DNA from: SAR116 cluster bacterium
GTDB lineage: Bacteria > Pseudomonadota > Alphaproteobacteria > Puniceispirillales > Puniceispirillaceae
Assembly (NCBI GenBank): GCA_004212735.1
Contig: SHBD01000017.1
Location: 1-36,555, forward strand
DNA length: 36,555 bases
Reading direction: 5' to 3'
A program made the position numbers and the translations under genes. The notes under the pieces are model-generated. The model was not told where the DNA came from and did not search any database. It was given only the letters and a program-made list of their open reading frames with translations. How positions within the stretch are numbered: the stretch's first letter is position 1; each line of letters opens with the position of its first letter. Of this stretch, positions 188 to 27,872 are shown in pieces.

Positions 188-1513
188 ATGCCAGATGACG
201 CAAAAATGTCAGGTGCCAATAAACGCAGTCTTGTTGTTGAGGGCTTTACGAATAGTGTTCTGGACCCGAACGAGCCAATGCTTGGGCCGATTGAGAATGG
301 TGGCACAATCATCGCCAACACCGCGCCGGGCTGTTGGGGCCCGATGATTACACCGAGGCTGCGTGGTGGACATGAAGTCACACAGCCTGTTTATGTCGAT
401 AGCGCAGAACCGGGTGACGGGATTATCATCCGCATTCGAGATGTCACGGTAACGTCAATCGCCACTGCATCCGGGCATGACACATCACCGGAGGGATTTT
501 GTCTGGGTGATCCCTATGTTGCGGCAAGATGCCCGACCTGTGAGACAGTGTGGCCGGAAACCTATGTTCAGGGCGTCGGACAGGATTCTGTCAAGTGCGA
601 GGCATGTGACAATCCGGTAAAACCGTTTGAGATTCTGCATGGTTACACGGTTACTTTTGATGGCACCAATAATGTCGGTGTTACGCTTCCACAGGCATCT
701 GCCGAGAAAGTGGCCGCGCGTGCCGATCATTACGCCGCGTTGCCTGACAACTCTCGCCAGCATTCGATTTTGCATTACGCACCGTCAGACATGCCCGCAG
801 TCATGGTCAGAATGAGGCCGTTTCTTGGGCAATTGGGCACTGTCCCCTCCATCGCAATGCCTGACTCTCACAATGCCGGTGACTTTGGCAGCTTTCTTGT
901 AGATGCGCCTCATCACTATTCAATTTCGCATGAGGAATTAATCGAACATAAAACAGATGGGCATATGGATATTGATGCGGTCAGACCCGGAGCAATCCTT
1001 GTTGCGCCTGTCAAAGTCAAAGGCGCTGGTGTTTATGTTGGTGACATGCACGCCGCCCAGGGTGATGGTGAAATTGCAGGTCACACAATGGATGTTTCAG
1101 GCAGCGTGACATTGCAGGTTGAGGTGCTGAAAGGCTTTGCAATTGACGGGCCTGTTCTCTTTCCCCTGCAAGAGGATTTGCCGCCACTGGCCAAACCATT
1201 TACCAGTGATGAACTCAGCAAAGGTGCCAGACTCGCAAAATCCTGGAACATCGAGGAGCTGGAGCGCCTTGCCCCGATCTCGGTAATTGGCACCGCCTCC
1301 AACTTGAATGACGCCATTGAAAATGGGCTTCACCGCGCTGCGACGCTGTTGGATATGACGGTTCCAGAAGTTCGGAACCGGGCCACCATAAATGGCGCGA
1401 TAGAAATCGGCCGCGCACCGGGTGTCATACAGGTGACGTTTCTGGCACCTCTGGCCAAGCTTGATAAAGCTGGCCTGGGTGATTTGGCGCGGGAGCAATA
1501 TAATATTGGCTAG
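188..1513 (+). CDS. Acetamidase/formamidase family protein with zinc-ribbon insert
   Basis: This 441-residue protein belongs to the FmdA/AmdA family, cytosolic hydrolases that release ammonia from formamide or short amides. Family landmarks are the TPRLRGGHEVTQPVYVD block (about 56-71), the AEPGDG turn (73-78) and the GDMHAAQGDGE core (285-295), which carries the likely metal and catalytic residues. Unusual for the family is a four-cysteine module, C115-x2-C118 and C137-x2-C140, that looks like a zinc ribbon inserted in the N-terminal half. The start is set by AAGGAGA at 176-182, 5 bases before ATG. The stop overlaps the convergent amidase stop by 4 bases, so no terminator fits between them. 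A shorter relative lies at 18111-19049. The family call is firm; the substrate is not known. Confidence 0.88.
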   Translation: MPDDAKMSGANKRSLVVEGFTNSVLDPNEPMLGPIENGGTIIANTAPGCWGPMITPRLRGGHEVTQPVYVDSAEPGDGIIIRIRDVTVTSIATASGHDTSPEGFCLGDPYVAARCPTCETVWPETYVQGVGQDSVKCEACDNPVKPFEILHGYTVTFDGTNNVGVTLPQASAEKVAARADHYAALPDNSRQHSILHYAPSDMPAVMVRMRPFLGQLGTVPSIAMPDSHNAGDFGSFLVDAPHHYSISHEELIEHKTDGHMDIDAVRPGAILVAPVKVKGAGVYVGDMHAAQGDGEIAGHTMDVSGSVTLQVEVLKGFAIDGPVLFPLQEDLPPLAKPFTSDELSKGARLAKSWNIEELERLAPISVIGTASNLNDAIENGLHRAATLLDMTVPEVRNRATINGAIEIGRAPGVIQVTFLAPLAKLDKAGLGDLAREQYNIG

Positions 1514-2829
1514 GGGTGAGGCTGGAGTTTTGGTATTTCACAGGATATCTGGAGATGGTCTGCGATAACCCTCGAATGTGCCAATAGAGTCTGGTCTGCG
1601 CCAAACCTCCCGACCAGCTGAAACGCAAGCGGCAGATTTGCGGTATCCCGGCCAAAAGGAAGGGTGACGGTTGGCACCCGCATCACTGTCCATAAACGAC
1701 TAAACAAAGGGTCGCCTGTTGCCTCAATACCGGCTGGCGCACCCGAGGTTGCTGCCGGTGTCATTATGGCGTCATAGCTCGACAGCAATTTTGCCAATGC
1801 CGCCTCACCGGCATCACGCGCAGCCAGTGCAGCATCATAATCTGCTCGTGAGGTGGAGAGACCCGTTTCAATCAAACCATAAAATGCGCTGCTCAATTGT
1901 TCCGGATGGTTGCGAAATTCAAAGTGTCGTGCGCGTGCCACTTCAAACGCCATAACGGTTTTGTGACACTCACTTAAGTGAGTGAATTCTGAGGGCGATT
2001 CCAAATCTGTCACGCTAACGCCCGCAGATCGCAAAGCCTCAGCGGCCGAAATACAGGCATCTTGCATGGATTGACTGGCCTCATGCCAATGCGGGCCTTT
2101 GAAAAACGCGATCTTCTGCGGGGATGAGTGCCCCTGTACGTCTCCTGGCAGGACAGTCCCACAAAGGGCCGCTCTTGCAAGAATCAAATCATCAATGCCG
2201 CGTGCCAACAATCCCAGTGAGTCGAGGCTTGCAGCCAGCCCCATCACACCCTGTAGATCAATTGATCCTTGGCTTGCCTTATAGCCAAATACACCACAAT
2301 AGGCGGCTGGCCGTGTCAGCGACGCCGCGGTTTGTGAGCCAAGCCCAAATACAGCCATGCCATCAGCCACCGCAGCCGCCGAGCCGCTCGATGACCCGCC
2401 GGGGGTATGGTCCAGATTATGCGGGTTTCGCGTTGCACCGGGAGAAAAATAGGCAAACTCGGTGGTCACAGTCTTGCCTATCGGGATAGCACCGGCGCGC
2501 ATCAGCATCTCTACACAGCTGGCATTTCTAGGCGCTTGAAAGCCCTTATAGATCGGGCTGCCCCAGCTGGTTGGCAAATCGACCGTATCAATAATATCCT
2601 TTACGGCGAACGGCACACCATGGAGGAGTCCCTTTTCTGGCTGCTGGTCGGCAGCGCGCGCAAGCCTTAAAGCCCTGTCGGCATCGAAATCTATGAAGGC
2701 ATTGACCGCTCTGTCCTGCGCGTCTATGCGGACAAGATGATCACCCATAACCGCCTCAGCGGTTAATTTTCCCGATGAAATATGAGCGGCAATTTGGGTA
2801 GCCGTCATCGAACAAGTGTCATTGCTCAC
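1510..2829 (-). CDS. Amidase (amidase signature family)
   Basis: This 439-residue amidase-signature hydrolase would convert an amide to an acid plus ammonia. The Ser-cisSer-Lys triad is readable: K77 in GVPFAVKDIID, the cis-serine in GGSSSGSAAAV (144-154), and the nucleophile S170 in QTAASLTRPA. The usual Gly-Gly or Ala-Gly before the nucleophile is Ala-Ala here. The GTG start overlaps the TGA of the upstream DUF1116 gene (GTGA, 4 bases), which indicates translational coupling. It is the last gene of the leftward ALDH-Rieske-DUF1116-amidase operon. It probably hydrolyses an amide or carbamoyl product of that pathway. An AtzF/allophanate-hydrolase-like role is possible, but the C-terminal allophanate domain is absent. 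Substrate unknown. Confidence 0.88.
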   Translation of the reverse strand: MSNDTCSMTATQIAAHISSGKLTAEAVMGDHLVRIDAQDRAVNAFIDFDADRALRLARAADQQPEKGLLHGVPFAVKDIIDTVDLPTSWGSPIYKGFQAPRNASCVEMLMRAGAIPIGKTVTTEFAYFSPGATRNPHNLDHTPGGSSSGSAAAVADGMAVFGLGSQTAASLTRPAAYCGVFGYKASQGSIDLQGVMGLAASLDSLGLLARGIDDLILARAALCGTVLPGDVQGHSSPQKIAFFKGPHWHEASQSMQDACISAAEALRSAGVSVTDLESPSEFTHLSECHKTVMAFEVARARHFEFRNHPEQLSSAFYGLIETGLSTSRADYDAALAARDAGEAALAKLLSSYDAIMTPAATSGAPAGIEATGDPLFSRLWTVMRVPTVTLPFGRDTANLPLAFQLVGRFGADQTLLAHSRVIADHLQISCEIPKLQPHP

Positions 2830-4061
2830 AAGATTGGTCCGGGCTCATATGATCGGTCCAGAGCGTCCATCGCCGATGCAAAAATGCTCAGGGGTGGGTC
2901 ATAGATCCCGCCACCAATACGGCCAAGCTCCCCAGCCTTGTCAATGATACCAAGGGCAACAATCGGACCCGCACCAAAATTCAGTGATGATCTGAGTGGT
3001 ATTCCGATTTTGGGTGCCGCCTCGGTAAAATCATAATGCGCGCCGATTTTCAGAGCCTCACTTCGGGCTTCAAAATCATCTGGCAGCACATTTTTAAAAA
3101 CCTTTACCTGCTCTGGCGCCCCAGATATCTGCATGGCACCAAGCCCCAAACCTTCAACCACCGCACTGTCGCCAATGGCGCCGAGCCGTCTGTCATCACT
3201 CAATTGCTCTTGGATTTCGCCGTTTGGTGGCGCGGCCATTTCAGTAAACCATTGGCCAGGTAGACCTGCAATCTGAAGCCCCATCCGAACCCCGTTACCG
3301 CCCATCGCCGTGATCATGCTGGAACCGGTGACGCCTTCGGCTGCAAGCATCATGGTTTTTGTTGCAGCCATCCAAAGGTTGAGGAACATGCTCGGCGATT
3401 TTCCAAAAAATTCAGATATTTCAGAGCTCACTACCCCGCCTCTTACGCGGCTTGCCAACTCATCAAAAAGGCATTTTGTCGCCGCTATGGTGCGGCCGTG
3501 ACAATCATCGCCGTGGCGCAGACCGGATGAGGCTATGGGGATCAACTCAACGCCCTCTCCAAGGCCGGAGACCATGAAATCCAGCACCGGTCCATTGATC
3601 CAGCGTAAATGCTCAACAGCCTCATCTGATTTCTGTCCAAGTCTGATGGCCGGGCCAGTTCCGCCATTGATCGGCGTCAGGCAAAATTGATTTCCATGAT
3701 TGCCATCATAGACATAATGCAGCGGCATTTTCGGCGTCACAACAGCCGCCAATGGTGTCACTACATTGAAATCTTGTGCCGGCTTTAGGATGATTTCACC
3801 AGAACGCACCATATCGATGGCGTCATCCAGATTTTTGGCCAGCCCCTCAAACACCGCACCAACAGCAGCTGAGTTCACTATAGGTTGGCATATCTCGTCT
3901 ATCGTGGTGAAAGCCGGGCCAGCATGCAGAAACACATTGTCGTCAATGCCGACCTGATTTTTCGCAGTCTCAAAGCCACGCCAGAATGGCTGCGCAACCG
4001 AAATCCGATCAAATGCCAGCAGATCTTTTGGGTGATGATTGAACTCCGTCATACCGTTCAA
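2826..4061 (-). CDS. DUF1116 family protein (AllG/YlbE/YahG-like, putative carbamoyltransferase component)
   Basis: This 411-residue protein matches the DUF1116 family as I recall E. coli YahG and YlbE. Shared blocks are LHAGP (45-49), FEGLAKNLDDA (71-81), HGDDCHGR (183-190), the NGVRMGLQIAGLPGQWF region (257-272) and IGDSAVVEGLGLG (296-308). The N-terminus is shorter than in YahG. YlbE (AllG) has been described as a component of oxamate carbamoyltransferase with AllF and AllH; neither partner is visible here. The gene starts 3 bases after the Rieske stop and overlaps the amidase start by 4. A TTG at 4061 has GGAA 7 bases upstream; an alternative ATG is at 4052. Carbamoyl transfer or oxamate-type chemistry is an inference. 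The family call is strong. Confidence 0.8.
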   Translation of the reverse strand: MNGMTEFNHHPKDLLAFDRISVAQPFWRGFETAKNQVGIDDNVFLHAGPAFTTIDEICQPIVNSAAVGAVFEGLAKNLDDAIDMVRSGEIILKPAQDFNVVTPLAAVVTPKMPLHYVYDGNHGNQFCLTPINGGTGPAIRLGQKSDEAVEHLRWINGPVLDFMVSGLGEGVELIPIASSGLRHGDDCHGRTIAATKCLFDELASRVRGGVVSSEISEFFGKSPSMFLNLWMAATKTMMLAAEGVTGSSMITAMGGNGVRMGLQIAGLPGQWFTEMAAPPNGEIQEQLSDDRRLGAIGDSAVVEGLGLGAMQISGAPEQVKVFKNVLPDDFEARSEALKIGAHYDFTEAAPKIGIPLRSSLNFGAGPIVALGIIDKAGELGRIGGGIYDPPLSIFASAMDALDRSYEPGPIL

Positions 4062-4064
4062 AGA

Positions 4065-5435
4065 TCAATTCCAAGTGTCTTCATATGCCTTGAGGCTCTG
4101 CTTGATGAAGCCCGCTCTCTCCTCGCCGAGAAGATGGTCTGCGCTGGTATAGATATCAGCAACGTCATGCGCCACTTTGCGCAATACCGCCTCATCGTCA
4201 CGGCCCTCCTGGACGGGGATGTTCAACATCGTGTCTCCGCCGTAAGTGGGAATGGGGCTATCACAATGTTCGCCCGGTTGGACAACATCACCACCATTTT
4301 GCACCTCGAGTATCGCCTGCTTCAATTTACGTCTCACCTTGGCAACGCCACGATCGGTGAAACACAAATTTTCCCGCGCATGAATGTTTTTGGGGCCTTG
4401 TGAAACCCACGCATCATAATCCCCGGGATCTGCCTGCATTTGTTCATAGGATCGGTCTGGACCCTGACCATAGAAATCCGTTTTGCCGAAGCCAACCTCG
4501 TCGCGATTGGTCAATCCCTGAGGATCCTCGCCTTCCCTGAAATGACGCCAAGCGATGACCCGGGTATTCTCATCATCAATTGGCACGACCCAACGAGACA
4601 AGCCGCACCGACCAAAATACATAGATTTATCCGGCGTCGGGAAATGTCCCCCATTCTGGGTGAATGACGGCAACACCTTGTCGTGTATTCTCAGCCAGAT
4701 TATGTCCCCTACCCGTCTGGTGTTGGTGTAGAAATCGCCAATTTTAGTAGAGAAATACTCAATGCGAGGCAATTCAGCGAATGCTTCGATAAATTGAGAG
4801 CGCACCGCTTTTGTGTGCAAATAAACCGTGTGGAACGGATCCCACGCGTTCTCCATGACCTGCAGCCAATTACAGGGCGAGTCGATCAAATATGGCAGCA
4901 TCTCGTCACCATCATCATCGAAGGTGTCATAGAATGGAAAAGGAGGGGTCTTGTCCGGCGGCCCCATATAGGTGAACGCCAGACCCTTATACTCAATAAC
5001 GGGATAGGCACCCAAACATACCTTTTCCTTTATTTTACTGGCTGGCGGCTCGCAGGGTGTCTCCAGAATGGTTCCATCAACGTCATATTTCCATCCATGA
5101 TAACTGCACCTGATGCCGCCCTCTTCGATAATGCCAAACTCCAGCGACATGTTTCTGTGCGCACAATGCAGGTGAACCAGGCCCAAGCGGCCTTTTGTCT
5201 CGCGGAACAAAACCAAATCCTCGCCCAAAACGCGAACCCGATAAGGCTTGTCGGAAAATTGATTGGTCATCGCAATCGGCAGCCAAAAACGGCGCTGATA
5301 CTCACCACACGGTGTTCCCGGACCGACCTCTGCAAGCAAGGGATCAGGCTTCTCGGACCACACATATTGCTTGGCATGCCCCCTGAAGTTACCCTCTGGG
5401 ACACTGGGGTTTGAGTTCAGCTTTCCATCTTCCAT
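4065..5435 (-). CDS. Rieske non-heme iron oxygenase, alpha subunit (copy 1)
   Basis: This 456-residue terminal oxygenase is of the phthalate-dioxygenase type and would hydroxylate or demethylate an aromatic or N-heterocyclic substrate. The Rieske [2Fe-2S] ligands are C91, H93, C110 and H113 (CAH...CSYH). The mononuclear iron site is DPFHTVYLH with H202 and H207; D199 bridges to the Rieske centre. A likely carboxylate ligand is the Asp of TDRG near the C-terminus. The start is ATG at 5435, chosen because GGGAG lies 7 bases upstream; a TTG at 5441 is too close to it. The neighbours (aldehyde dehydrogenase upstream, DUF1116 and amidase downstream) suggest a catabolic operon. The reductase at 8038 probably supplies electrons. 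It is a close paralogue of the gene at 11008. Confidence 0.92.
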   Translation of the reverse strand: MEDGKLNSNPSVPEGNFRGHAKQYVWSEKPDPLLAEVGPGTPCGEYQRRFWLPIAMTNQFSDKPYRVRVLGEDLVLFRETKGRLGLVHLHCAHRNMSLEFGIIEEGGIRCSYHGWKYDVDGTILETPCEPPASKIKEKVCLGAYPVIEYKGLAFTYMGPPDKTPPFPFYDTFDDDGDEMLPYLIDSPCNWLQVMENAWDPFHTVYLHTKAVRSQFIEAFAELPRIEYFSTKIGDFYTNTRRVGDIIWLRIHDKVLPSFTQNGGHFPTPDKSMYFGRCGLSRWVVPIDDENTRVIAWRHFREGEDPQGLTNRDEVGFGKTDFYGQGPDRSYEQMQADPGDYDAWVSQGPKNIHARENLCFTDRGVAKVRRKLKQAILEVQNGGDVVQPGEHCDSPIPTYGGDTMLNIPVQEGRDDEAVLRKVAHDVADIYTSADHLLGEERAGFIKQSLKAYEDTWN

Positions 5436-5553
5436 TTTCAACTCCCTGAACGAGCTTGCAACGCCTTTTAAGAAACATCGTTTATTCAGAATATACTAAA
5501 GCCCTCAATTAGGACAGTCAATTCTAGTGGCCAGACACAGACTGCCAAAGGCA

Positions 5554-7023
5554 CTATCTGGCGAAGGGATCTGGCACACCCACTTTGCCGTTCCAAATCA
5601 CCTTTTCCTGCATGAAATCCCGGATGGCGTTCGGGCCTAACTCCCTACCATAGCCGGATTTTTTAATACCGCCCACAGGTGCACATGCGCTCACTGATCG
5701 GTAATGATTTATGTAGACTGTGCCGGAGTCAATTTTACTGGCGATCTCGCTGGCAAACCCCTCATCGGTGGTCCAGATGCCAGCAGCGAGACCATAATCC
5801 GAGTCATTGGCCAAGGTTATAGCCTCCTCCTTATTTGAGAAGCTGTGAACACAAAGCACCGGCCCAAATACTTCCTTACGCCAAATTTCAGCGTAAGGAG
5901 ACACATTTTCCAAAATTGTTGGTTCCATGAAAAAGCCATTCTCAAACCCCGGAACAACTTTCTTTGAGCCGCCTGCCGCGATCGTTGCCCCCTCCTGCCT
6001 TGCACGATCCACCATCGACAGGATTTTATCAAATTGCGCTTCATTGGCGATTGGCCCGATGTCGGTGTCCTCACGCAACGGATTGCCAAAATGCAGACCA
6101 TCCAGCTTTTCTTTCAGGCGTTCGACAAATGCCCCCCTGATTTCATCATGGATGATCAATCTTGACCCGGCGACACAGCTTTGGCCGTTTGAGAGAAAAA
6201 TTCCCGACATGACACCATTTATGGCGCTCTCTAGATCAGCATCGGCAAAGACGATCTGGGGAGATTTACCGCCCAACTCCAGAGTCGATGGCTTCACATG
6301 TTTCGCCGCTGTGGTGGCAACTTTCGAGCCGCCAATCTCGGACCCTGTGAAAGAGACTTTTTTGACCGCATCAGCGTCAACAATCTCAGCGCCAACCTCA
6401 TCACCATAGCCGGTCACGACATTTATCAAGCCATCTGGCACCACGTCAGACAGCACCTCAGCAAACAAAACAGTTGAGGCTGAGGCCATCTCTGACGGCT
6501 TTATGATCACGGCATTTCCGCCCGCAAGCGCGGGGGCAACTTTCCAAGCCGCAATCATTAAGGGAGAGTTCCAGGCTGTGATCGCACCAATAACGCCGTA
6601 GGGTATCAATTCGAGATGAGCTGAAACCCCCTCCAGATCGAGGGTTAACTCCTCAACTTCCATTTTCGCAAGAGCGAGAGCAAAATGACGATACCATCCG
6701 CCAAGTCCGGCCATTTGGGCTGCGACCTCACGAATGCGTTTTCCATTGTCATTGATTTCAATTTCGATGAGCTGCTTATGCTCGCTATCCAACCGGTCAG
6801 CAATGCCATGCAGAATTTCGGACCGGTTGGCAGCACTGTCTCGCCAATCGGGCTGCTGAGACGCCGTGAGCGCAGCCTCAACAGCGAGGTCAACGTCAGC
6901 TTTGTTTCCTCTGGCAATCTGCGCCCAGACAGCACCCGTGGCTGGATTGATGCTGTCAATCCATTCACCGCTGTTTGGCGGGGTAGAATGCCCATTTATG
7001 AAATGTTGAAACCGCCTAATCAT
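5554..7023 (-). CDS. NAD(P)+-dependent aldehyde dehydrogenase
   Basis: This 489-residue protein has the full length of the ALDH superfamily. It oxidises an aldehyde to a carboxylic acid. Visible motifs are N152 in TAWNSP, the cofactor loop FTGSEIGG, the general base E249 in LELGGKSP and the catalytic C283 in NGQSCVAGSR. The start is ATG at 7023, with GAGGAG 6 bases upstream. A longer frame reaches a GTG at 7053 but lacks such a site. It is the first gene of the leftward operon, and 118 bases separate it from Rieske oxygenase 1. It probably oxidises an aldehyde released by oxygenase action or side-chain removal. The sequence resembles betaine-aldehyde and 5-carboxymethyl-2-hydroxymuconate-semialdehyde types, but the substrate cannot be read from it. 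Confidence 0.92.
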   Translation of the reverse strand: MIRRFQHFINGHSTPPNSGEWIDSINPATGAVWAQIARGNKADVDLAVEAALTASQQPDWRDSAANRSEILHGIADRLDSEHKQLIEIEINDNGKRIREVAAQMAGLGGWYRHFALALAKMEVEELTLDLEGVSAHLELIPYGVIGAITAWNSPLMIAAWKVAPALAGGNAVIIKPSEMASASTVLFAEVLSDVVPDGLINVVTGYGDEVGAEIVDADAVKKVSFTGSEIGGSKVATTAAKHVKPSTLELGGKSPQIVFADADLESAINGVMSGIFLSNGQSCVAGSRLIIHDEIRGAFVERLKEKLDGLHFGNPLREDTDIGPIANEAQFDKILSMVDRARQEGATIAAGGSKKVVPGFENGFFMEPTILENVSPYAEIWRKEVFGPVLCVHSFSNKEEAITLANDSDYGLAAGIWTTDEGFASEIASKIDSGTVYINHYRSVSACAPVGGIKKSGYGRELGPNAIRDFMQEKVIWNGKVGVPDPFAR

Positions 7024-7077
7024 GTCTAAGCTCCTCGCTACCCTATTCATCACACCTAAAACAATATGCTGCCATTT

Positions 7078-8037: not shown

Positions 8038-8991
8038 CTACAAATCCAAAACCAATTTCTTCGATTTGCATCCAGCGACGCACAAGGCGACAGATGTTTC
8101 CTGTTCATCCGGCATTAGAACAACATCATTATGAACAGGCTCACCCTCTAGGTAATCAACCACACAGGTGCCGCACACACCCGCCTCACACGAGGTTTCC
8201 ACGTCAATATTTACCGCTTTGAGAGCTTCGATAATTGTTTGCCCCTCGCCAACATCGACCGTCAGACCGGAGCGCAGAAGCTCAACGGTGAAGTCACCAT
8301 CTTTTGACGCCTCGTCATCGGTCTTGGCACCTACCGGATTAAAATCCTCAGTGATCAATGACCCACCTTGCAGGTCAACCACCTCCGCAAGCGCAGTCAT
8401 CAAACCCCGCGGTCCGCAACAATAGAGTTGCGCGTTTGCCTCACTGGCCACCAATTCGGTTAAATTGATCGATTTGGAGGGATCACCCCCATCGTAATGG
8501 ACCAGCATGTTTTCCCCGAATAGAGGCGTGAGATGGTCAACAAATGCGGTTGTTTCAGGCGCTCTTGCGCAATAATAAAGTTTCATCGGTATGGCGTTGT
8601 GGCGACAATGATGTGCCATCGAGATAAAGGGTGTTATGCCAATTCCACCGGCGACAAAAACATGAGAAGTCGCGCCGTCAACAACTTCAAAATTATTCCG
8701 AGGATGGGACACCTCAATCACATCACCAACGCGAAGTGATTGATGAACGAAGGCCGAGCCACCACGGCCCTCATTTTCCAAAAGAACAGCAAATTGATAA
8801 CGGTTACTGTCCTTTGGGTCATTCATGAGTGAATACTGCCTCACAAGACCGTCACGGAGAAACACGTCGATATGACCACCGGCGCTGAAAGGGATGAGGT
8901 CATCAGCCTGTGCAGAGACCATTTCGACACTCAAGATTCCTTTTGCCTCGTGTCGCATCGCGCTTATGAGAACTTTTTGTTTCGCTACCAT
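8038..8991 (-). CDS. Phthalate-dioxygenase-type reductase (FMN, NAD(P)H, [2Fe-2S])
   Basis: This 317-residue class IA oxygenase reductase (PDR/VanB type) moves electrons from NAD(P)H through flavin and [2Fe-2S] to a Rieske oxygenase. In order, it has a flavin domain with RQYSLMND (FMN-type RxYS), a pyridine-nucleotide domain with GGIGITP and a CCGPRGLM segment, and a C-terminal plant-type ferredoxin with C268, C273, C276 and C304 (CEAGVCGTC, then ALC). The start is ATG at 8991 with AGAGG about 12 bases upstream; a TTG at 9012 is an alternative. It is the only recognisable oxygenase reductase in the window, so it probably serves one or both Rieske proteins at 4065 and 11008. It is divergent from the EamA gene. 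Confidence 0.93.
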   Translation of the reverse strand: MVAKQKVLISAMRHEAKGILSVEMVSAQADDLIPFSAGGHIDVFLRDGLVRQYSLMNDPKDSNRYQFAVLLENEGRGGSAFVHQSLRVGDVIEVSHPRNNFEVVDGATSHVFVAGGIGITPFISMAHHCRHNAIPMKLYYCARAPETTAFVDHLTPLFGENMLVHYDGGDPSKSINLTELVASEANAQLYCCGPRGLMTALAEVVDLQGGSLITEDFNPVGAKTDDEASKDGDFTVELLRSGLTVDVGEGQTIIEALKAVNIDVETSCEAGVCGTCVVDYLEGEPVHNDVVLMPDEQETSVALCVAGCKSKKLVLDL

Positions 8992-9083
8992 TTCAAAGCA
9001 TCGCCTCTGCAAAAAAGTGTTACTGATAAAGGTGGTTTACAAACGGAACATTCAGAAATGCACCGTTTGATAGAGTTTTCCAT

Positions 9084-11007: not shown

Positions 11008-12390
11008 ATGGAAGACTATCGCGAGATCATCAAAGAATGGCGGCAGCGACCAAATGAAACTTATGGCGGTTATCATTTGGCTGACCGCCCTGCCCCAGAT
11101 CCGGAACTCACTGAGACAGGTCCACGCACTCCAGCTGGAGAATATTGGCGCCGTTTCTGGTTTCCAATTTGCCTGTCGGAGGAAGTGACAAACAGACCGC
11201 TTCGCAAGAGGATTCTCAGCGAAGATTTGGTTGTCTACCGCGATGGTGAAGGCAATTGTGGTCTTTTGCACCTGCATTGCAGCCACAGGAACATGTCACT
11301 CGAATTTGGCATAATCGAGGAAAGAGGCATTCGCTGCGCGTATCATGGGTGGCTATATGACTATGATGGCACGGTGATGGAAACACCAGGCGAGCCAGCA
11401 GGAAGCCCATTGTGCGAGAAAGTCAAGCAGGGCGCCTACCCCGTCCAGGAATTTCAGGGATTGGTGTTCGCCTATATGGGGCCGATGTCCGAGATACCTG
11501 ATTTTCCCATGTATGACACTTTTGATTTGGATGGACATGAATTGGTGCCGTATCGGCTGAGTTACCCGTGTAACTATCTGCAAGTCGCAGAAAACACCAT
11601 GGATCCGATTCACACTGTCTATCTGCACACCCTGGTGGGTGAGACTCAATTTGAAGAAACCTGGGGAATCACTCCTGTTCTAAAGTTTAATGATGGCGAG
11701 ACCGGTCTTTATTCCACCCTGACTTATCGTGTCGATGATATGATCTGGGTGCGAACACAGCAGACGGTGTTTCCAACTTTTTCCCACGTTGGAGCCTTTT
11801 GGGAGACCGGCAAGGATGAAAAATATTTCGTGCGTTCCAGCATTACCAAATGGACCGTGCCAATCGATGACACGAATAGCATGATCATTGCCTGGCGGCA
11901 TTTCGGCCCGGCGATTGACCCTGATGGCAAAGGCAAACGTGACGAGGTAAAGATCGAGTCCGTTGATTTCGAGGGGCAAACCGAAGCGCGTGACTATGAT
12001 GAAATGCAGCGCAACCCCGGTGATTACGAGGCGCAGGTGTCAATCGGTCCGATCGCACGACATGCCGCAGAGAATCTTGGCAAAACTGACCAAGGTGTGA
12101 TGATGCTGCGGAACAGGCTCAGACGGGGCATCAGAGACGTGGCCAACGGCAAACCCGTTGTGCATTACGACGGGGACAAGCCGATCAAGAATCTTTACAC
12201 GCAAGACACCGTGATGCCCATTCCAAAACGGGATGATATGGACGATGATGAGCTGATGGCTGCCGTCGCCGAAGAGGTTATGCGGATTGTTCGTGAAGGT
12301 GACAATTTTGCCGGCGCAGAAAGAGAAGCCTTCATTATCGAAAATCTGAAAAAGATTAAATCAGATAACCGTTTTGTTGTTGGTGAATAG
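11008..12390 (+). CDS. Rieske non-heme iron oxygenase, alpha subunit (copy 2)
   Basis: This 460-residue phthalate-dioxygenase-type terminal oxygenase is a paralogue of the gene at 4065. Rieske ligands C91, H93, C110 and H113 and iron residues D199, H202 and H207 (DPIHTVYLH) sit at the same residue numbers as in copy 1. Around the Rieske cluster, 22 of 25 residues match between the copies. The probable third iron ligand is the Asp of TDQG near residue 361. GAGG at 11002-11005 precedes the ATG closely. The stop overlaps the GTG start of the first permease by one base, so oxygenase and importer are translated together. The imported compound is therefore likely the oxygenase substrate or its precursor. 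Electrons probably come from the reductase at 8038. Confidence 0.92.
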   Translation: MEDYREIIKEWRQRPNETYGGYHLADRPAPDPELTETGPRTPAGEYWRRFWFPICLSEEVTNRPLRKRILSEDLVVYRDGEGNCGLLHLHCSHRNMSLEFGIIEERGIRCAYHGWLYDYDGTVMETPGEPAGSPLCEKVKQGAYPVQEFQGLVFAYMGPMSEIPDFPMYDTFDLDGHELVPYRLSYPCNYLQVAENTMDPIHTVYLHTLVGETQFEETWGITPVLKFNDGETGLYSTLTYRVDDMIWVRTQQTVFPTFSHVGAFWETGKDEKYFVRSSITKWTVPIDDTNSMIIAWRHFGPAIDPDGKGKRDEVKIESVDFEGQTEARDYDEMQRNPGDYEAQVSIGPIARHAAENLGKTDQGVMMLRNRLRRGIRDVANGKPVVHYDGDKPIKNLYTQDTVMPIPKRDDMDDDELMAAVAEEVMRIVREGDNFAGAEREAFIIENLKKIKSDNRFVVGE

Positions 12391-13244
12391 TGGAAAATCG
12401 TTGGATTGCATATTTAATCCCACCATTCATTGTCACTCTGCTTTTGGTGGCGGGATCACAATTTGTATTCATTCAAAACAGCTTCTATCAAGACCTTGGG
12501 TTGGGTCGGACAGGAACTGATCTTACGCTGGTGAATTACTTGAATTTTTTCACCGACAGTTTCTATCTGAAAACCTTTTGGATCACGATAAAAGTGTCTG
12601 CGCTTGCCTCGCTATTTACTCTTTTTCTGGGTTTTCCGATCGCCTATGTGATCGCCAGGATGAAATCCAGATTGGCAATGTTGCTGTTAGCGGGCATCGT
12701 CGTGTCCACCTTTGTGACCATCGTGATCAAAGTCTTTGGACTGATTATCATCTTTTCCGCGGATGGTGTTTTGAACACGACGCTGATGAATTTAGGGCTT
12801 ATCGACAGAGCCTACAGCATCATTGGAACGCAAGAAGGTATTGTTGTTGGCCTGATGCACTTCACCATCGGGTTTAGTGTTTTGCTTCTCTACAGCGTGG
12901 TTGTGACCGTGCCGCCATCGTTGGAATATGCTGCACAAATCCATGGGGCATCGAGGTGGAGGGTTTACCAAAGGGTGATCATTCCCCTGTGCACGCCCGG
13001 CTTTGTCGTTGGTGGATTGATGATCTTCAACATGTGTATGGGTGCCTTTACCTCGGCCGCACTTTTGGGCGGAGGACGGGTGCTTACGCTTCCTGTGCTG
13101 GTTCAGCGAACAGTGATGATGGAGGTAAAATATTCGACAGCAGCCTCTATCGCTTTCGTTTTGCTGGTGTCTGTCATTCTCATAAATCTGATTTCATTGA
13201 TCGCGATCCGGCGCCTCAGATCAGCCCGGCTGGTCATCGCATAG
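12390..13244 (+). CDS. ABC importer permease, PotB-like (importer 1)
   Basis: This 284-residue inner-membrane permease is of the spermidine/putrescine-type (MetI fold) family, with about six transmembrane helices. The cytoplasmic coupling loop reads EYAAQIHGASRWRVYQRVII (about residues 178-197), the EAA motif that docks on the ATPase. It starts with GTG at 12390, sharing one base with the Rieske stop codon, and ends 9 bases before the second permease. It is part of a complete importer: two permeases, binding protein and ATPase. The substrate is not readable. A polyamine-like or other small cationic or N-containing compound is the usual range for this family. Confidence 0.9.
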   Translation: MENRWIAYLIPPFIVTLLLVAGSQFVFIQNSFYQDLGLGRTGTDLTLVNYLNFFTDSFYLKTFWITIKVSALASLFTLFLGFPIAYVIARMKSRLAMLLLAGIVVSTFVTIVIKVFGLIIIFSADGVLNTTLMNLGLIDRAYSIIGTQEGIVVGLMHFTIGFSVLLLYSVVVTVPPSLEYAAQIHGASRWRVYQRVIIPLCTPGFVVGGLMIFNMCMGAFTSAALLGGGRVLTLPVLVQRTVMMEVKYSTAASIAFVLLVSVILINLISLIAIRRLRSARLVIA

Positions 13245-13253
13245 AGGACAGAT

Positions 13254-14087
13254 ATGCAAACCTGGGTAGAAAAAGTTATTTTATTTGTCTGGTGCGGCTT
13301 TTCCTACGTGTTTCTGCTGTCGCCGATGGTCGTTGTCATGGGCGCTTCTTTGCATGGCGGTGAATTCTCCGCGGCGATCAAATTTCCGCCAGAGGACCCT
13401 TCTTTTCAATGGTATTCGAAAATCCCAATGCAGCAATTTGAAGCGCTGGGTTTGAGCCTGATCGTTGCCGCGGTGGCAACCTTTCTGGCAGCGCTGATCG
13501 CAGTACCGGCCGCTTTGGGCCTCGTGCGAAGCAATTTTAAGGGAAAATTTATCGTAACAACAATTTTTCGCGCACCATTGCAGATTCCAGCGATCGTCTC
13601 CGGCATCGCCTTTTTACAGTTCTATTATCTCATCTATGACAATAGCAGCCTGATGTTGGCAGGCACCATACCGGGAATGCTGATTGGCCACGTGTTTATC
13701 GCCACCCCCTTTCTGTTTGGCACAATAGTGGCGGTGCTCCAGCGCTTTGATCATCGCCTTGAAGAAGCAGCACACAGCCTTGGCGCGGGAAAATGGCGCA
13801 CCCTTTACAGGGTCACGATCCCGACAATAATGCCCGGCATATATTCAGGTGGATTATATGCTTTCATGGTGTCTTTTGCCGACGTGCCAATGTCGATCTT
13901 TTTAACAGCGCCTGGGTTCGTGACTTATCCGGTCGAACTTTTTTACGCGCTTGAGAATGACTTTGACCCCAGTATTTTGGCGTCATCGTCTTTGGTAATC
14001 ATTTTCTGCCTCATCATGCTTCTTGGGGTTCAGAAAATGGTTGGCCTTGAAACATTGCTCCGTTCGGGTGGGGGCAGTGCAAGATAA
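13254..14087 (+). CDS. ABC importer permease, PotC-like (importer 1)
   Basis: This 277-residue inner-membrane permease partners the preceding PotB-like protein. It has about six hydrophobic helices, and its EAA loop reads EEAAHSLGAGKWRTLYRVTI followed by PTIMPG. AGAGGA about 6 bases before the ATG at 13254 supports the start. It lies between the first permease and the binding-protein gene. Type-1 importers of this class need the permease heterodimer, and both members are present and intact here. Confidence 0.9.
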   Translation: MQTWVEKVILFVWCGFSYVFLLSPMVVVMGASLHGGEFSAAIKFPPEDPSFQWYSKIPMQQFEALGLSLIVAAVATFLAALIAVPAALGLVRSNFKGKFIVTTIFRAPLQIPAIVSGIAFLQFYYLIYDNSSLMLAGTIPGMLIGHVFIATPFLFGTIVAVLQRFDHRLEEAAHSLGAGKWRTLYRVTIPTIMPGIYSGGLYAFMVSFADVPMSIFLTAPGFVTYPVELFYALENDFDPSILASSSLVIIFCLIMLLGVQKMVGLETLLRSGGGSAR

Positions 14088-14119
14088 GATAAGTGAGTGT
14101 TAACCAAAGGGAGAAAGTT

Positions 14120-15190
14120 ATGAACAAAATAACAAAAACTTTTACATCAGTCGCGATGGCAGTTGGGATAGTCTCTGCTGTTGCCACCTCTGCCACGGCG
14201 GGTGAATTTGATGGCGTAACCTTGAAGGTAGCTACATGGGGTGGCTCCTGGAAGGAAAATATGGAAAAAGTCATCGTGCCTAAATTTGAGGCGCTCGGTG
14301 GTAAAATCGAATTTGTCACAGGAAGTCCGGCATCAAGCTTTGCAAAGCTGGTGGCCGGCAGAGGTAGAGCACCATTCGACGTTATGGAAGTGTTAGACGC
14401 ACAGGTTGGTGACTTTGCGCAGGTTGACTATCTGCAGCCTATCAACCTTGACCTCATTCCCAACAAATCGAACCTCCAGCCGTTCCAATATAACACCACC
14501 TATGTCGGTAGCTGGTTCACCCAAGAGGTAATTTGTTACAACACCGAAAAATTCAGTGAGCTCGGAATTCCAGCCCCAAAAACCTATGCTGATCTGGCTG
14601 TACCAGCCCTTCAGGACAAGGTCTCATTGCCTGACATTAACTCAGGTGCCGGTCTGGCGAATTTTGGCGGCGTTATTTTTGCAGCAGGTGGAGACGAGCA
14701 GAACATCCAGCCCGGCCTCGATTTGATGGCAAAGATCAATGCCACCAAATTCTGGAAGCGCGGTGGAGAAACAAAGACACAGTTTGAAACAGGCGATATC
14801 TACGCCGCAGTGGTCCATGCAGGATGGTGTGCAAGAGCGGCACGTGCTGGCTCTCCGGTGATGTCAGTTCATCCTGAAATCAAGCCTGGTGTGAAGGGTC
14901 TGGCCAAAGAAGGATGGCTTGGCATCATGAAGTCCAGCGAGAATGTGGCAGCTGCCCATTGGTTCATCAATGAGTATCTCACCACTGATTTTCAGTATGA
15001 GTATGCGATCAACAGCGGTGTGTTCCCATTGAACTCAGAAGCCATTGAAAAAATGAAATCCGACGAAATCAATGCGCGTCTGATGGAAATGGATGCTGGA
15101 AACATCTCAAAAATGCTCCGCATCGATTACAACAAAGTGGACAAGACAGCTTGGATTGATGGCTGGAACAAGACACTGACAACCAACTAG
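14120..15190 (+). CDS. ABC importer periplasmic binding protein, PotD-like (importer 1)
   Basis: This 356-residue secreted binding protein has a signal peptide: basic MNKITK, a hydrophobic stretch, and likely cleavage after SATA near residue 27. The mature protein begins with the VATWGGSWKENMEK pattern typical of spermidine/putrescine-type binding proteins. It captures the substrate in the periplasm for the two permeases upstream. ATG at 14120 was chosen over an upstream in-frame codon at 14093 because AAAGGGAG lies about 6 bases before it and the signal peptide then starts properly. The ligand cannot be deduced from the sequence. The co-translated Rieske oxygenase suggests an organic compound that is then oxidised. 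Confidence 0.92.
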   Translation: MNKITKTFTSVAMAVGIVSAVATSATAGEFDGVTLKVATWGGSWKENMEKVIVPKFEALGGKIEFVTGSPASSFAKLVAGRGRAPFDVMEVLDAQVGDFAQVDYLQPINLDLIPNKSNLQPFQYNTTYVGSWFTQEVICYNTEKFSELGIPAPKTYADLAVPALQDKVSLPDINSGAGLANFGGVIFAAGGDEQNIQPGLDLMAKINATKFWKRGGETKTQFETGDIYAAVVHAGWCARAARAGSPVMSVHPEIKPGVKGLAKEGWLGIMKSSENVAAAHWFINEYLTTDFQYEYAINSGVFPLNSEAIEKMKSDEINARLMEMDAGNISKMLRIDYNKVDKTAWIDGWNKTLTTN

Positions 15191-15198: not shown

Positions 15199-15242
15199 CG
15201 AAAGTATAAACAAAACAACGTCGCTGAGTTTGGTTGGGTAAA

Positions 15243-16310
15243 ATGTCCGGTGTAAAACTTGATAATATCGTGAAAAGCTACGGGTCAACTGTTGCCGTAA
15301 ATGATGTCTCTTTGGACATCAAGGAGGGTGAGTTTCTCACCCTTCTCGGGCCATCTGGCTGTGGTAAAACGACAACATTGCGTTTGATATCGGGCTTTAT
15401 CCAGCCGACCAGCGGCGCTATTCATTTTGGCGATAAAGATGTGACAGGGATTGCCCCACAGCATCGACAAATCGGCATGGTATTTCAAGACTATGCCCTA
15501 TTTCCCCATTTAACGGTAAGCGAAAATATTGGCTTTGGCTTGGTTGAACGTCGCTATGATAAGGCGGCAATCAAGAAACGCGTAGATGAGTTGTTGGCAT
15601 TGATCAAACTTGAAGAAGCTGCCGACCGCTACCCAAGTGAGATTTCCGGTGGTCAGGCACAGCGGGTTGCCGTGGCGCGAGCCGTGGCTCACCCCCCTAG
15701 TGTCTTGCTGATGGATGAACCTTTGGGCGCGCTTGACCTGAAACTTCGTGAAACGATGCAGACAGAGCTTAGGCGTATTCAACAGGAACTTGGCATCACT
15801 GCTGTTTATGTGACGCATGATCAATCTGAAGCGATGAATATGTCCGACAGAATTGTCGTGATGAATGCAGGCATCATTGAGCAAATCGGCTCACCAAAAG
15901 GTATATATGCGAATCCACAATCTGTTTTTGTGGCAAATTTCATTGGTCAGGTGAATATTCTGGACTGCCATGTAACAACTCAAGTCGATAAAACGACTGA
16001 ACTTGATTACCACGGTCAAAAGATCACGGCACAAATTGAAAAATCATTGCGACAAGGAACAGCCATATTTCTGGCGATCCGGCCCGAGGATATCAAGATC
16101 ACGGCAAGAGCCGCTGGCAAATCGCAAAATAGTCTAAAAGGCGTTGTCTCAGAGGCATTGTTCTCAGGCAATGTCATGAAAATATCGGTAGCCCTTGATA
16201 GTGGCGATGTGATCAAAGTCGAGTGCCAGCCAAAGGCGAATAGCTTTGACATTGGTGACCATGTGCATGTCAATTGGTTGCCAGAAGATTGCAACATTCT
16301 GTTAAACTAG
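15243..16310 (+). CDS. ABC importer ATPase, PotA-like (importer 1)
   Basis: This 355-residue ATPase energises importer 1. Walker A is GPSGCGKTT (36-44), the Q-loop lies in GMVFQDYALFPH, the signature is ISGGQAQR (Ile replacing the usual Leu), Walker B is LLMDEPLGALD, and the switch His is in YVTHDQSEA. A C-terminal TOBE-type domain with AIRPEDI follows. ATG at 15243 is preferred over a TTG three codons upstream. A typical Shine-Dalgarno is absent, with only a G-rich stretch. Two orphan paralogues follow within 20 bases and 9 bases, so they are probably in the same transcript. Confidence 0.93.
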   Translation: MSGVKLDNIVKSYGSTVAVNDVSLDIKEGEFLTLLGPSGCGKTTTLRLISGFIQPTSGAIHFGDKDVTGIAPQHRQIGMVFQDYALFPHLTVSENIGFGLVERRYDKAAIKKRVDELLALIKLEEAADRYPSEISGGQAQRVAVARAVAHPPSVLLMDEPLGALDLKLRETMQTELRRIQQELGITAVYVTHDQSEAMNMSDRIVVMNAGIIEQIGSPKGIYANPQSVFVANFIGQVNILDCHVTTQVDKTTELDYHGQKITAQIEKSLRQGTAIFLAIRPEDIKITARAAGKSQNSLKGVVSEALFSGNVMKISVALDSGDVIKVECQPKANSFDIGDHVHVNWLPEDCNILLN

Positions 16311-16329: not shown

Positions 16330-16956
16330 ATGGACCGAATATCTGTCAATCCGGGCTCCGTGGAATGGTCCGGCGAAAACCCCGGCATTTATCTCAAGTC
16401 AGACCCTGATGGTGATTATTCAGTTGTAGCGCTGTTTTTCAGGATTGTGTTGTCACCGCATGGACGAGGTGTTGGCGCCATCATCCTTGGCGATCCTGAC
16501 ACCGCGGCCGGCTATCCAGAGGTTCCAAATCTGTGCCTCACTGATAATCGCCCCATGATGACGTATCTGCTCGATAATTTTGCCTCCAAATTTCCAACAT
16601 TAGTCGGCAGGGCCGGTGTTGAGGCGATGAGTTGGCATGACGTTACCAAGAACAATCAAGATAATCGCAACATGCCACACAGCTACAGCGAGGAACTGAC
16701 TGCGGGTGACGTAACCGTACAAATGACATGGAAAGACCTTCAGCCACCGATGGCCATTGAGGTCGGCCCCAATGAATCTGCCACCAAAGCGCATGATATG
16801 TATGCCGTATTTTTGGAGGCCACCGATGCGCGGATCACGATAAATGGAACGGCATTGCAAGGTCAGGTGGTTGACCGGCAGTTTTTTGGCCGGACGATGA
16901 GCACCGCTTTTCTGGCATTATCTGAAACCTGGGTTAATCCTAACGAGAATGGGTGA
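16330..16956 (+). CDS. Conserved-looking protein of unknown function (tandem paralogue A)
   Basis: This is a 208-residue soluble protein without signal peptide or membrane segments. I do not recognise a family. It is clearly related to the next gene. Shared landmarks are VEWSGENPGIYLK (13-25), DGDYSV then LFFRIV, a central DN-R/E-x-M region, and a C-terminal STAFLALSETWVNP. A strong GAGG lies 8 bases before the ATG at 16330. It sits 19 bases after the ATPase of importer 1 and 9 bases before paralogue B. The conserved Trp, Asp and Glu residues could form a ligand pocket or enzyme site. It is acidic overall. A substrate-processing enzyme, or a small-molecule-binding pair acting downstream of uptake, would fit, but no function can be claimed. 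Confidence 0.75.
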   Translation: MDRISVNPGSVEWSGENPGIYLKSDPDGDYSVVALFFRIVLSPHGRGVGAIILGDPDTAAGYPEVPNLCLTDNRPMMTYLLDNFASKFPTLVGRAGVEAMSWHDVTKNNQDNRNMPHSYSEELTAGDVTVQMTWKDLQPPMAIEVGPNESATKAHDMYAVFLEATDARITINGTALQGQVVDRQFFGRTMSTAFLALSETWVNPNENG

Positions 16957-16965
16957 GGAAAGACC

Positions 16966-17589
16966 ATGCCAATAAAACCAAATGTGAGAACAGGTGGCGT
17001 CGATTGGACGGGTGAGAATCCGGGAATGCTTCTGAAAACCGATCCAGCGGGCGACTGGTCAGTTTTGATGCTTTTTTTCCGGATCGTTTGGTCGCCTGTT
17101 GGCCCTGGCAATATTCTGTTGTTGTATGAAAATCCCGGCAAAGGCGCTGGCTTGCCAGAATGCTGCAATGTGATCATGGCGGATAATGAAGCGCTACGTG
17201 ACTACATCAAGACCGGTTTCATCGAAAAGCTGGGCACCTTTAGTGATGCCCCTGCATATGCGGCGTCCTCACAACTGACCATTGATAATGTCGTTAGCGA
17301 TGGAGACCCGTGTGGAGATTTCTACAGCGAGACTGTGACGGGTGGCGGTTTGACAATCAAATTGGTCTGGGAAGAGCTGGGCAAGCCAACGGCACTTGAA
17401 TTGCCGCCGGAGCTCACCGGTACCGGTGAGCACGTTATGTATAGCCTGCTTGTTGACTCAAAATCTTGTTATGTTGAGGTCAATGGACGGCGACTTGAAG
17501 GGCATCCTGTGCCTCGTGAGCAGGCGGGCCTGCCGCTCTCAACAGCGTTTCTGTATTACTCGGAAACCTGGATTTTTCCCGACAAGTGA
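16966..17589 (+). CDS. Conserved-looking protein of unknown function (tandem paralogue B)
   Basis: This 207-residue paralogue of the preceding gene shares VDWTGENPGMLLK, DPAGDWSV with LFFRIVWSP, and the C-terminal STAFLYYSETWIFP. The middle third differs more, including a CC pair (PECCNV) and extra cysteines not shared with paralogue A. GAGG about 8 bases before ATG at 16966 supports the start, and the gene begins 9 bases after paralogue A ends. Divergence together with retained order suggests a heteromeric pair or two successive steps rather than a recent duplication. It is the last gene of the rightward operon and converges on the GlcG-like gene 18 bases away. Function unknown. Confidence 0.75.
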   Translation: MPIKPNVRTGGVDWTGENPGMLLKTDPAGDWSVLMLFFRIVWSPVGPGNILLLYENPGKGAGLPECCNVIMADNEALRDYIKTGFIEKLGTFSDAPAYAASSQLTIDNVVSDGDPCGDFYSETVTGGGLTIKLVWEELGKPTALELPPELTGTGEHVMYSLLVDSKSCYVEVNGRRLEGHPVPREQAGLPLSTAFLYYSETWIFPDK

Positions 17590-17607: not shown

Positions 17608-18021
17608 CTAACTGGCACCGATGGCGGCAAGTCCCGCCCGGGCCACATCCAAATCATCATCGCCTGAACCACCACTGACGCCAATGCCGCCGACATGGAC
17701 ACCATCGAGGACGATTGGCAAGCCACCTGGAAGATTGGTGTATTGACCGCCTGTGGCAAAAGCCACACCAACTTCAAATTCCGCAGGCAAGGCGCCCGAC
17801 GGGTGTTGGCGTTCTGCTGCAACCCGAGCCTTCGCATAGGCTGGGCCAGAGGCAAGGTCAGCCGCCCCATCAGTTCTGGCAAAGCAAACAAGACCGCCTG
17901 ACGGGTCCATAATGGCGATACATTGCGGCACATTCATCTCGTCAGCCCTGGCAACTGCCGCCGCCATCATTTTGCTTGCCGCCAGATAATTGATCCGTGT
18001 CATGCTGGTTGTATATGCCAT
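17608..18021 (-). CDS. GlcG/HbpS-like (DUF336) heme-binding-family protein
   Basis: This 137-residue protein is of the GlcG/HbpS family, small oligomeric proteins of mostly unclear role often encoded beside catabolic enzymes. Matching segments are the opening helix with LAASKMMAAAVARADEMN, the MDPSGGLVCFARTDGA strand (about 38-53), a KARVAAERQHPSG helix, LPGGLPIVLDG (about 99-109) and the glycine-rich GGIGVSGGSGDDD near the C-terminus. The frame is open 54 codons further upstream, but ATG at 18021 has AGGGAG 9 bases before it and the upstream part is repetitive and unlike the family. It follows formamidase 2 in a leftward operon. It may be a cofactor-binding or accessory protein; the role is uncertain. 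Confidence 0.85.
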   Translation of the reverse strand: MAYTTSMTRINYLAASKMMAAAVARADEMNVPQCIAIMDPSGGLVCFARTDGAADLASGPAYAKARVAAERQHPSGALPAEFEVGVAFATGGQYTNLPGGLPIVLDGVHVGGIGVSGGSGDDDLDVARAGLAAIGAS

Positions 18022-18048
18022 GAGATATGTCTCCCTAAAGTGATGCCC

Positions 18049-18081
18049 TGTTGTTTGGCTGTTGTTTGGCTGTTGTTTGGC
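18049..18081. repeat. Three tandem copies of an 11-base unit
   Basis: TGTTGTTTGGC occurs three times head to tail without mismatch, in the 89-base gap between the GlcG-like start and the formamidase 2 stop. It looks like a small slipped-strand repeat. It lies in the leader of the GlcG-like gene on the minus strand, where it reads GCCAAACAACA. Confidence 0.85.
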
Positions 18082-18110
18082 TGGTGCCTGATCTTGCGTA
18101 TTTTTCTGTG

Positions 18111-20952: not shown

Positions 20953-20954
20953 CG

Positions 20955-21242: not shown

Positions 21243-21245
21243 GTC

Positions 21246-25280: not shown

Positions 25281-25283
25281 GAT

Positions 25284-26537: not shown

Positions 26538-26596
26538 GATCAACTCAGGACAGATTTCAGATGAAAGCTCATAAAAGGAATGAACATGATAATAAA

Positions 26597-26621
26597 GTGA
26601 TCACGGACAGGCCGTGATCAC
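26597..26621 (-). terminator. Strong intercistronic hairpin after the binding-protein gene
   Basis: Arms GTGATCACGG (26597-26606) and CCGTGATCAC (26612-26621) pair perfectly over 10 bases with a 5-base loop. Read leftward it is followed by TTTATTATC. It lies 41 bases past the binding-protein stop and before the permease start. It probably acts as an attenuator or 3'-end stabiliser that raises binding-protein expression above permease expression. Confidence 0.7.
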
Positions 26622-26662
26622 CAGTTTCAAGACAGGCAGGCTGTCACAAACCGCTTACCAGT

Positions 26663-27754: not shown

Positions 27755-27771
27755 GATGTCTTTGCTCCCTT

Positions 27772-27790: not shown

Positions 27791-27802
27791 CGTTCTTATA
27801 GT

Positions 27803-27820: not shown

Positions 27821-27872
27821 GATAATCCCGTCAGGCGTGGCTGACAGGAATTCTTCAATATCCTAGCCAGTT

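Follow-up and report, generated by a model that had tools for sequence, protein, structure and literature searches.

At one end of an operon for a Rieske oxygenase and an ABC importer, a contig of a SAR116 cluster bacterium carries two adjacent genes whose products, here called A and B, resemble each other and match no named family. The locus raises the question of what such a pair contributes to the catabolic setting in which it lies, and whether the two proteins make that contribution together.

Tandem paralogues without a named family

The genes were examined in a window, by which we mean the whole 36,555-nucleotide stretch of DNA that was analysed (Table 1). A preceding sequence-only reading had given lengths and coordinates for A and B, together with spacings of 19 bases between the importer ATPase ORF (ending at 16310) and the start of A (16330) and of 9 bases between the end of A (16956) and the start of B (16966), all of which proved correct when the ORFs were re-checked. 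BLASTP aligned A with B end to end with zero gaps, 75 of 204 positions being identical (37%; E = 6e-49); the paralogy is full-length and far beyond chance. The N- and C-terminal blocks that had been singled out are present in both proteins (W[ST]GENPG, LFFRIV, and STAF-xxx-SETW), and the accompanying description of diverged middles is right as to degree, although the ungapped alignment extends through the middle as well. In two comparisons per gene, made with two SAR116-type relatives, dN/dS was 0.10 and 0.14 for A and 0.04 and 0.12 for B (an overall span of 0.04–0.14), indicating that A and B are proteins under purifying selection. Inspection of the sequences by eye revealed no obvious signal peptide or membrane segment in A or B, and the two are therefore probably cytoplasmic.

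Table 1 Positions of the tandem pair and of neighbouring genes in the window.
Feature	Position	Strand	Description
Protein A	16330..16956	+	208 aa, orphan family, first of tandem pair
Protein B	16966..17589	+	207 aa, paralogue of A, second of tandem pair
Rieske oxygenase 1 (phthalate/LigXa type)	11008..12390	+	Pfam Rieske, LigXa_C; first gene of the operon ending with A and B
ABC importer permease 1	12390..13244	+	Pfam BPD_transp_1
ABC importer permease 2	13254..14087	+	Pfam BPD_transp_1
Importer solute-binding protein	14093..15190	+	Pfam SBP_bac_1
Importer ATPase	15234..16310	+	Pfam ABC_tran and TOBE_2
Amidase, amidase-signature family	1510..2829	-	Nearest solved sequence malonamidase E2
AllG (DUF1116) homologue	2826..4061	-	Pfam AllG, E 2.3e-62
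Rieske oxygenase 2	4065..5441	-	67-74% identical to most of the Rieske proteins that immediately precede A in Rhodobacterales
Aldehyde dehydrogenase	5554..7053	-	Shares strand with AllG, amidase, and Rieske oxygenase 2
Likely Rieske reductase	8038..9012	-	FAD, NAD, and Fer2 domains
Nitrile hydratase alpha	20302-20952	-	Alpha subunit
NHase_beta_C	20958-21242	-	C-terminal piece of the split beta subunit
NHase_beta_N	21246-21707	-	N-terminal piece of the split beta subunit

The solved sequences nearest to Rieske oxygenase 1 are, by name, a Rieske domain protein and a putative phthalate 4,5-dioxygenase. This oxygenase is of a second type, 50% identical to Rieske oxygenase 2, which lies on the other strand of the window between 1.5 and 7.1 kb together with AllG, an amidase, and an aldehyde dehydrogenase. 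Several further genes surround the cluster. Members of the acetamidase/formamidase (FmdA_AmdA) family flank it on either side (188-1513, plus strand, and 18111-19049, minus strand), so that the stretch looks like an amide/nitrile catabolic island. The nitrile hydratase at 20302-21707 (minus strand) has its beta subunit split over two genes, an arrangement that is also that of thiocyanate hydrolase, and in two SAR116 loci (L017 and L022) the alpha subunit and the N-terminal piece of beta are arranged as in the window. An HbpS-like (PF03928) gene is convergent with B (17608-18183, minus strand), a neighbour of this kind likewise comes after B in the SAR116-type loci L017, L020, and L022, and a second PotABCD-like importer operon occupies 24366-28973 on the minus strand.

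The earlier reading recognised no family for A and B, which was borne out by searches of Pfam, NCBIfam, and PDB sequences. Neither A nor B matched any Pfam or NCBIfam family at E ≤ 10 (0 families for each); a Pfam scan of 88 family members returned only scattered families, each matched by at most two members (best E 0.0031); no PDB sequence matched A, B, or the family profiles with an E value below 0.18; and the PADLOC defence library contained no match for A or B at E ≤ 1. A search of open-licence papers found nothing on this gene cluster or on the function of the family. Counting the window's own genome, 8 of 101 relatives have the family; it also occurs in 38 of 385 genomes of the class, in 2 of a sample of 299 from the phylum (one being again the window's own), and in 4 of 72,556 plasmid records. 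A scan of GTDB contigs confirmed 243 stretches that carry it, and the locus set compared below consists of the best 80 of these 243, which are the nearest to one seed rather than a random draw, include many Rhodobacterales, and are not independent samples. Record titles among the best 80 of 243 name Alpha-, Gamma-, and Betaproteobacteria and SAR324. A family of 243 GTDB stretches is thus without a Pfam or NCBIfam model, and its paired form lies in a conserved catabolic cluster of SAR116 and Roseobacters, both of which are abundant marine groups.

A single duplication and the conserved company of the pair

The sequence-only reading had supposed that the tandem paralogues are kept together, and this is the case: among the best 80 of 243 loci, A and B lie side by side in 58, while 22 have a single member, two of the 22 having no room for a second. 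In all 57 pairs measured, A precedes B on one strand with a gap of -25 to 54 bases (mode 2), as calculated from the start codons that we picked and with the 58th pair (L068), whose B is identical to another, left out. We built a maximum-likelihood tree of 113 sequences (40 A, 34 B, 24 single-copy, and 15 distant members) with a midpoint root. All 40 A rows form one clade (support 99/96) and all 34 B rows form another (support 100/99); the labels A and B had been given by similarity, and the single origin of each is a result of the tree. The split between alpha- and gammaproteobacterial sequences is mirrored within the A clade and within the B clade, the 24 single-copy relatives branch outside both, with L080 and L082 beside A and L091 beside B (the latter with moderate support) as the nearest single-copy kin, and the 15 distant members make up a separate clade. 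One old duplication gave rise to A and B. In L070, a contig titled as a Bordetella parapertussis MAG whose organism label looks doubtful, A and B branch first within their respective clades.

A-type genes without B were found in L025, L071 (where only 741 bases of room are left beside A), L075 (which is absent from the tree), and L081. Loss of B is nevertheless rare, since the two further A-type loci without B, L059 and L069, have no room for it. Distance matrices for A and B over 49 loci correlate with r 0.93, hardly above the 0.90 obtained for either A or B against AllG, so that co-evolution of A and B beyond co-inheritance is unsupported.

Neighbours were labelled with HMMs built from the same loci, and the labels of the key neighbours were borne out by independent Pfam scans of example proteins; gene calls are crude in high-GC loci. 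Of the 58 pair loci (best 80 of 243), 51 contain a phthalate-type Rieske oxygenase, which in 34 is the gene immediately before A; 50 contain an AllG (DUF1116) homologue, which in 43 immediately follows B; and all 58 have at least one of the two within the DNA fetched. The catabolic oxygenase setting that had been suggested for the pair therefore gains support. Other genes recurring in these 58 loci (best 80 of 243) encode a HisC-like aminotransferase (37), a two-subunit TPP enzyme (37, counting the alpha subunit), an amidase (26), and sarcosine-oxidase alpha (17). The tie to the importer, which had been the other part of the suggestion, did not hold. An ABC ATPase lies directly upstream of A in only 12 of the 58 pair loci (best 80 of 243), which rules out the importer as a general partner and sets A and B apart from a PotABCD-type importer accessory protein, for which consistent linkage would be expected; moreover, the importer beside one single-copy relative (L086) is Liv-type, not PotABCD-like. 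The conserved partners of the pair are the Rieske oxygenase and AllG/DUF1116, not the importer.

The eight pair loci that lack AllG in the fetched DNA are the SAR116-type L017-L022, L039 (with 613 bases left), and L070. In SAR116 (the window, and genome G010 in L220), AllG lies about 12 kb from the pair on the other strand, with the amidase, Rieske oxygenase 2, and the aldehyde dehydrogenase, and in a gammaproteobacterial locus (L063) the two modules share a single stretch. The outer neighbours vary, as separate modules of an apparently single pathway, but A and B remain adjacent. A plasmid of Ruegeria conchae (L127) provides an annotated example of a pair locus. On a plasmid of Paracoccus aminovorans (L129), a single-copy relative is accompanied by genes for a ring-hydroxylating oxygenase, a reductase, an NAD(P)-dependent oxidoreductase, DUF1116, a VOC protein, an amidase, and an ABC importer, the family member standing between the oxidoreductase and DUF1116. 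In L077 (4792-11309), the pair and AllG are followed at once by a run of five amidase-labelled genes, a local gene expansion.

Beyond the pair, the association loosens. Rieske or AllG genes occur in 10 of the 22 single-copy loci (best 80 of 243), and none was labelled, with crude gene calls, within about 6 kb of 19 single-copy or distant loci from whole genomes (L182-L200). It had been reasoned that homologues lying mostly outside oxygenase and importer settings would refute the proposed role; the survey finds Rieske or AllG at every pair locus and the wider family mostly outside this setting. Two distant members (L197 and L200), whose genomes belong to one family, have genes for an aldehyde dehydrogenase and for a protein of the amidase family at a distance of a few kb, and Pfam scans of ten neighbours of distant members disclosed no common theme. 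Among the 385 class genomes, a comparison of two lists shows the family in 38, AllG in 37, and both in 14; in 12 of these 14 the two are on different contigs, one contig carrying both only in SAR116 genomes G000 and G010. The link with AllG therefore does not extend to the family at large; it is confined to the tandem pair and to some of the nearer single copies.

Predicted fold and conserved residues

AlphaFold models of A and B are confident (pLDDT 95.6 and 95.7, respectively; pTM 0.91 each), and their strands and helices follow one another in almost identical order. Foldseek found no match to either model in the PDB at E ≤ 1e-3, and a viral structure library likewise gave no match at E ≤ 1e-3. 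Among the structures listed by VIA-align, the acetoacetate decarboxylase (ADC) superfamily comes first, taking rows 1-9 for A (Z 8.2-8.8) and rows 1-8 for B (Z 8.6-9.2) with alignments of 146-161 residues at rmsd 4.3-5.5; a best Z of 7-8 is usual for models without a clear match, and values of 8-9 are only just above this. A second group, of AttH, pericyclases, 25-phosphosteroid lyase, and kievitone hydratase, follows for both models (Z 6.3-8.6, 131-143 residues, rmsd 3.5-7.0), after which Z drops to 5.2 and below (under rank 24 for A and rank 23 for B). The two models thus retrieve the same two groups, which consist mostly of enzyme structures (Z 6.3-9.2). The profile and fold searches that had been proposed for the pair therefore yielded no confident characterised family, and did yield a predicted beta-barrel near ADC and AttH/pericyclase structures (Z 8-9, with Foldseek E above 1e-3). 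We take this as a lead to the fold class and not as proof of kinship.

The likeness to either group has limits. Members of the ADC superfamily (PF06314; Swit_4259, MppR, aldolase-dehydratase) align with the predicted beta-barrels of A and B (Z 8.2-9.2), but profile similarity is lacking (hhalign against 14 ADC homologues gave a probability of 0.9% over 30 columns) and the matched chains exceed A in length by 36-58 residues. The barrels of AttH, the Diels-Alderase pericyclases, kievitone hydratase, and 25-phosphosteroid lyase come second among the fold matches, but AttH-type chains have 320-381 residues and two barrels, and A and B align to only part of them at 6-13% identity. ADC is a Schiff-base lysine enzyme, and the LTDN...K stretch of A resembles what we take to be the ADC lysine segment. 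We rejected K87 as a Schiff-base lysine: its column holds K in 57, R in 17, and H in 7 of 88 members, and the profiles do not match. No lysine is found among the columns of the 88 members that are invariant or at least 90% conserved, which makes decarboxylase chemistry of the ADC type unlikely for A and B.

Other residues are conserved across the family. At 24 positions, including W13, N17, N67, E121, W134, R183, S198, E199, and W201, conservation is at least 90% in A, B, and single-copy members, and 16 of the 24 (V11, G15, N17, P18, L22, G45, G47, E121, W134, P140, G178, R183, G187, S198, E199, and W201) are kept in distant members too. R183 and E199 are invariant in the 88 members and E121 is present in over 90% of them. 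A and B show fixed differences at 8 positions (among them F161/L, F185/Q, F186/A, M190/T, and A196/Y). In each of the two, moreover, conservation is relaxed at 7 positions where the other agrees with the single copies. These fixed and relaxed positions argue for two specialised proteins, not one live and one dead, and on the same grounds we discarded the idea that B is a degenerate, inactive copy.

What the pair may do

The simplest reading of the two genes is that their products form a heteromer, in which we have moderate confidence; the fixed differences and relaxed positions are what one would expect if both subunits had specialised. The fuller proposal that this heteromer performs one step of the Rieske-initiated breakdown of an N-containing acid is our tentative preference, although we stop somewhat short of calling it probable, and for the chemistry assigned to it our confidence is low. 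According to this proposal, the ABC importer would take up an N-containing (hetero)aromatic or N-acyl acid, which the neighbouring Rieske oxygenase would attack; A and B, as two unlike subunits of one cytoplasmic heteromer whose beta-barrels resemble ADC and AttH and enclose a pocket of polar and aromatic character, would then act on the Rieske product in one non-redox step, perhaps a hydration, an isomerisation, a ring opening, or a lyase reaction; and the amidase and the AllG-like enzyme would finish the breakdown. Computation supports the paralogy, the single duplication, the fixed order of A and B, their linkage to Rieske and AllG, the common predicted fold, and the conserved polar residues, whereas the heteromer, its pocket, a role as enzyme and not as binding protein, the place of its step, and the substrate are inferred.

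That the compound may be an N-containing acid is suggested by the company of the pair, namely the type of the Rieske oxygenase, the amidase, and, in the Roseobacter form, an aminotransferase, sarcosine-oxidase subunits, a deacylase resembling solved chains of aspartoacylase type and of N-acetyl-diaminobutyrate deacetylase, and a TPP subunit whose nearest relative is a putative phosphonopyruvate decarboxylase beta subunit. From these neighbour families one might guess at histidine/imidazoleacetate, homarine, creatinine-like compounds, or purine breakdown products as substrates. Because single-copy relatives occur in other gene settings, a substrate made by a Rieske oxygenase does not follow from the fold itself. 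The pair is a tangible point of entry to a pathway, as yet unassigned, by which a nitrogen compound is degraded.

A comparable set of tools has been described in the lumichrome cluster (Lum genes) of Nocardioides simplex, where a Rieske oxygenase, amidases, and a two-subunit thiamin-dependent decarboxylase act on a heterocycle acid (PMC12746152). The available part of that account suggests a toolkit similar to that of the pair loci, 37 of 58 of which (best 80 of 243) have the TPP-enzyme alpha subunit, but it comes from a different phylum, names no A/B-like gene, and gives the Lum Rieske oxygenase alpha and beta subunits (PMC12746152).

The frequent presence of AllG supplies the main competitor to this proposal. 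According to the part of the source available, oxamic transcarbamylase of E. coli is the product of three genes, allF, allG, and allH (PMC11326118), and A and B might be partners of AllG that replace AllF and AllH in a novel transferase of three parts, which would move a carbamoyl or acyl group and have a ureido or oxamate-like intermediate as its substrate. We regard this as possible but on the unlikely side. It would accord with the fact that AllG is the next gene after B in 43 of 58 pair loci (best 80 of 243), with the ATGA overlap between AllG and the stop codon of B in 23 of the 49 junctions measured, and with the conservation in AllG of 24 positions, D186 and H189 among them, at 95% or more over 102 rows that include pair-type sequences and in some cases the same gene fetched twice. 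It would also accord with the absence of the usual partners: in the window's genome, which is 96% complete, the best match to AllH scores 13 bits (cut-off 25) and that to AllF 41.9 bits (cut-off 433), and a search of 7 further genomes and one plasmid record that carry the family found no AllH match either. From its sequence, the AllG of the window is an orphan relative of a carbamoyl-transfer enzyme whose AllF and AllH partners are missing, which raises the question of how AllG works without the two partners reported in E. coli.

Against such a transferase, the SAR116 AllG stands well away from the pair on the other strand; one genome (G007) has AllG, the amidase, and Rieske oxygenase 2 yet no match to A or B, on a contig that ends 1.5 kb past the reductase; fairly high-scoring AllG homologues occur in regions without the family (L204 and L205); and AllG was unseen in 16 of the 22 single-copy loci (best 80 of 243), for some of which the fetched DNA is short. 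Carbamate kinase has no match over the cut-off in 3 of 3 SAR116 genomes, so that carbamoyl phosphate, if made, would go elsewhere. Homology of A or B to AllH was rejected for want of profile similarity. AllFGH resembles the set of A, B, and AllG in its three-gene make-up with AllG present, and differs from it in that neither AllF nor AllH reaches the cut-off in the genome of the window, that A and B are unlike AllH, that the setting here is one of oxygenases, and that carbamate kinase is lacking over the cut-off in the three SAR116 genomes. The most specific form of the idea, in which A, B, and AllG would be a new three-component transferase whose heterodimer of ADC/AttH-like barrels replaces AllF/AllH and closes an undescribed marine pathway begun by Rieske attack on an N-heterocyclic or N-methylated acid, we consider unlikely.

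A and B could instead be separate homomeric enzymes that act on successive or alternative substrates of one pathway and are adjacent through operon selection only. A family member can evidently work alone, as the single-copy relatives in 22 of 80 loci (best 80 of 243) indicate, A-type genes are found without B, and A and B differ at fixed positions; because the two stay together while other cluster genes rearrange, and because loss of B is rare, we find this reading distinctly doubtful and keep to the heteromer. Least of all do we expect A and B to be lipocalin-like carriers or sensors that bind the imported compound, a very unlikely role to which the beta-barrel fold and the avidin-, FABP-, and OmpW-type barrels among the lower-ranking matches (Z 3-5) might point, but which sits badly with the retention of R183, E199, and E121 as far as the distant relatives, with top fold matches that are mostly enzymes, and with an importer class that changes while the family stays.

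Single-copy relatives also follow a creatininase-family gene (L096), a TPP-enzyme gene (L189), and a gamma-glutamyltranspeptidase-family gene (L085). The last of these, identified by Pfam scan, lies directly before the single-copy member in Elioraea (L085, 1641-3952), and a gene of the same length occupies the same place in a second Elioraea locus (L088, 8304-10615). The oxamate amidohydrolase HpxW belongs to the gamma-glutamyltranspeptidase family, and the gene beside the Elioraea members is thus a further hint of oxamate-like chemistry.
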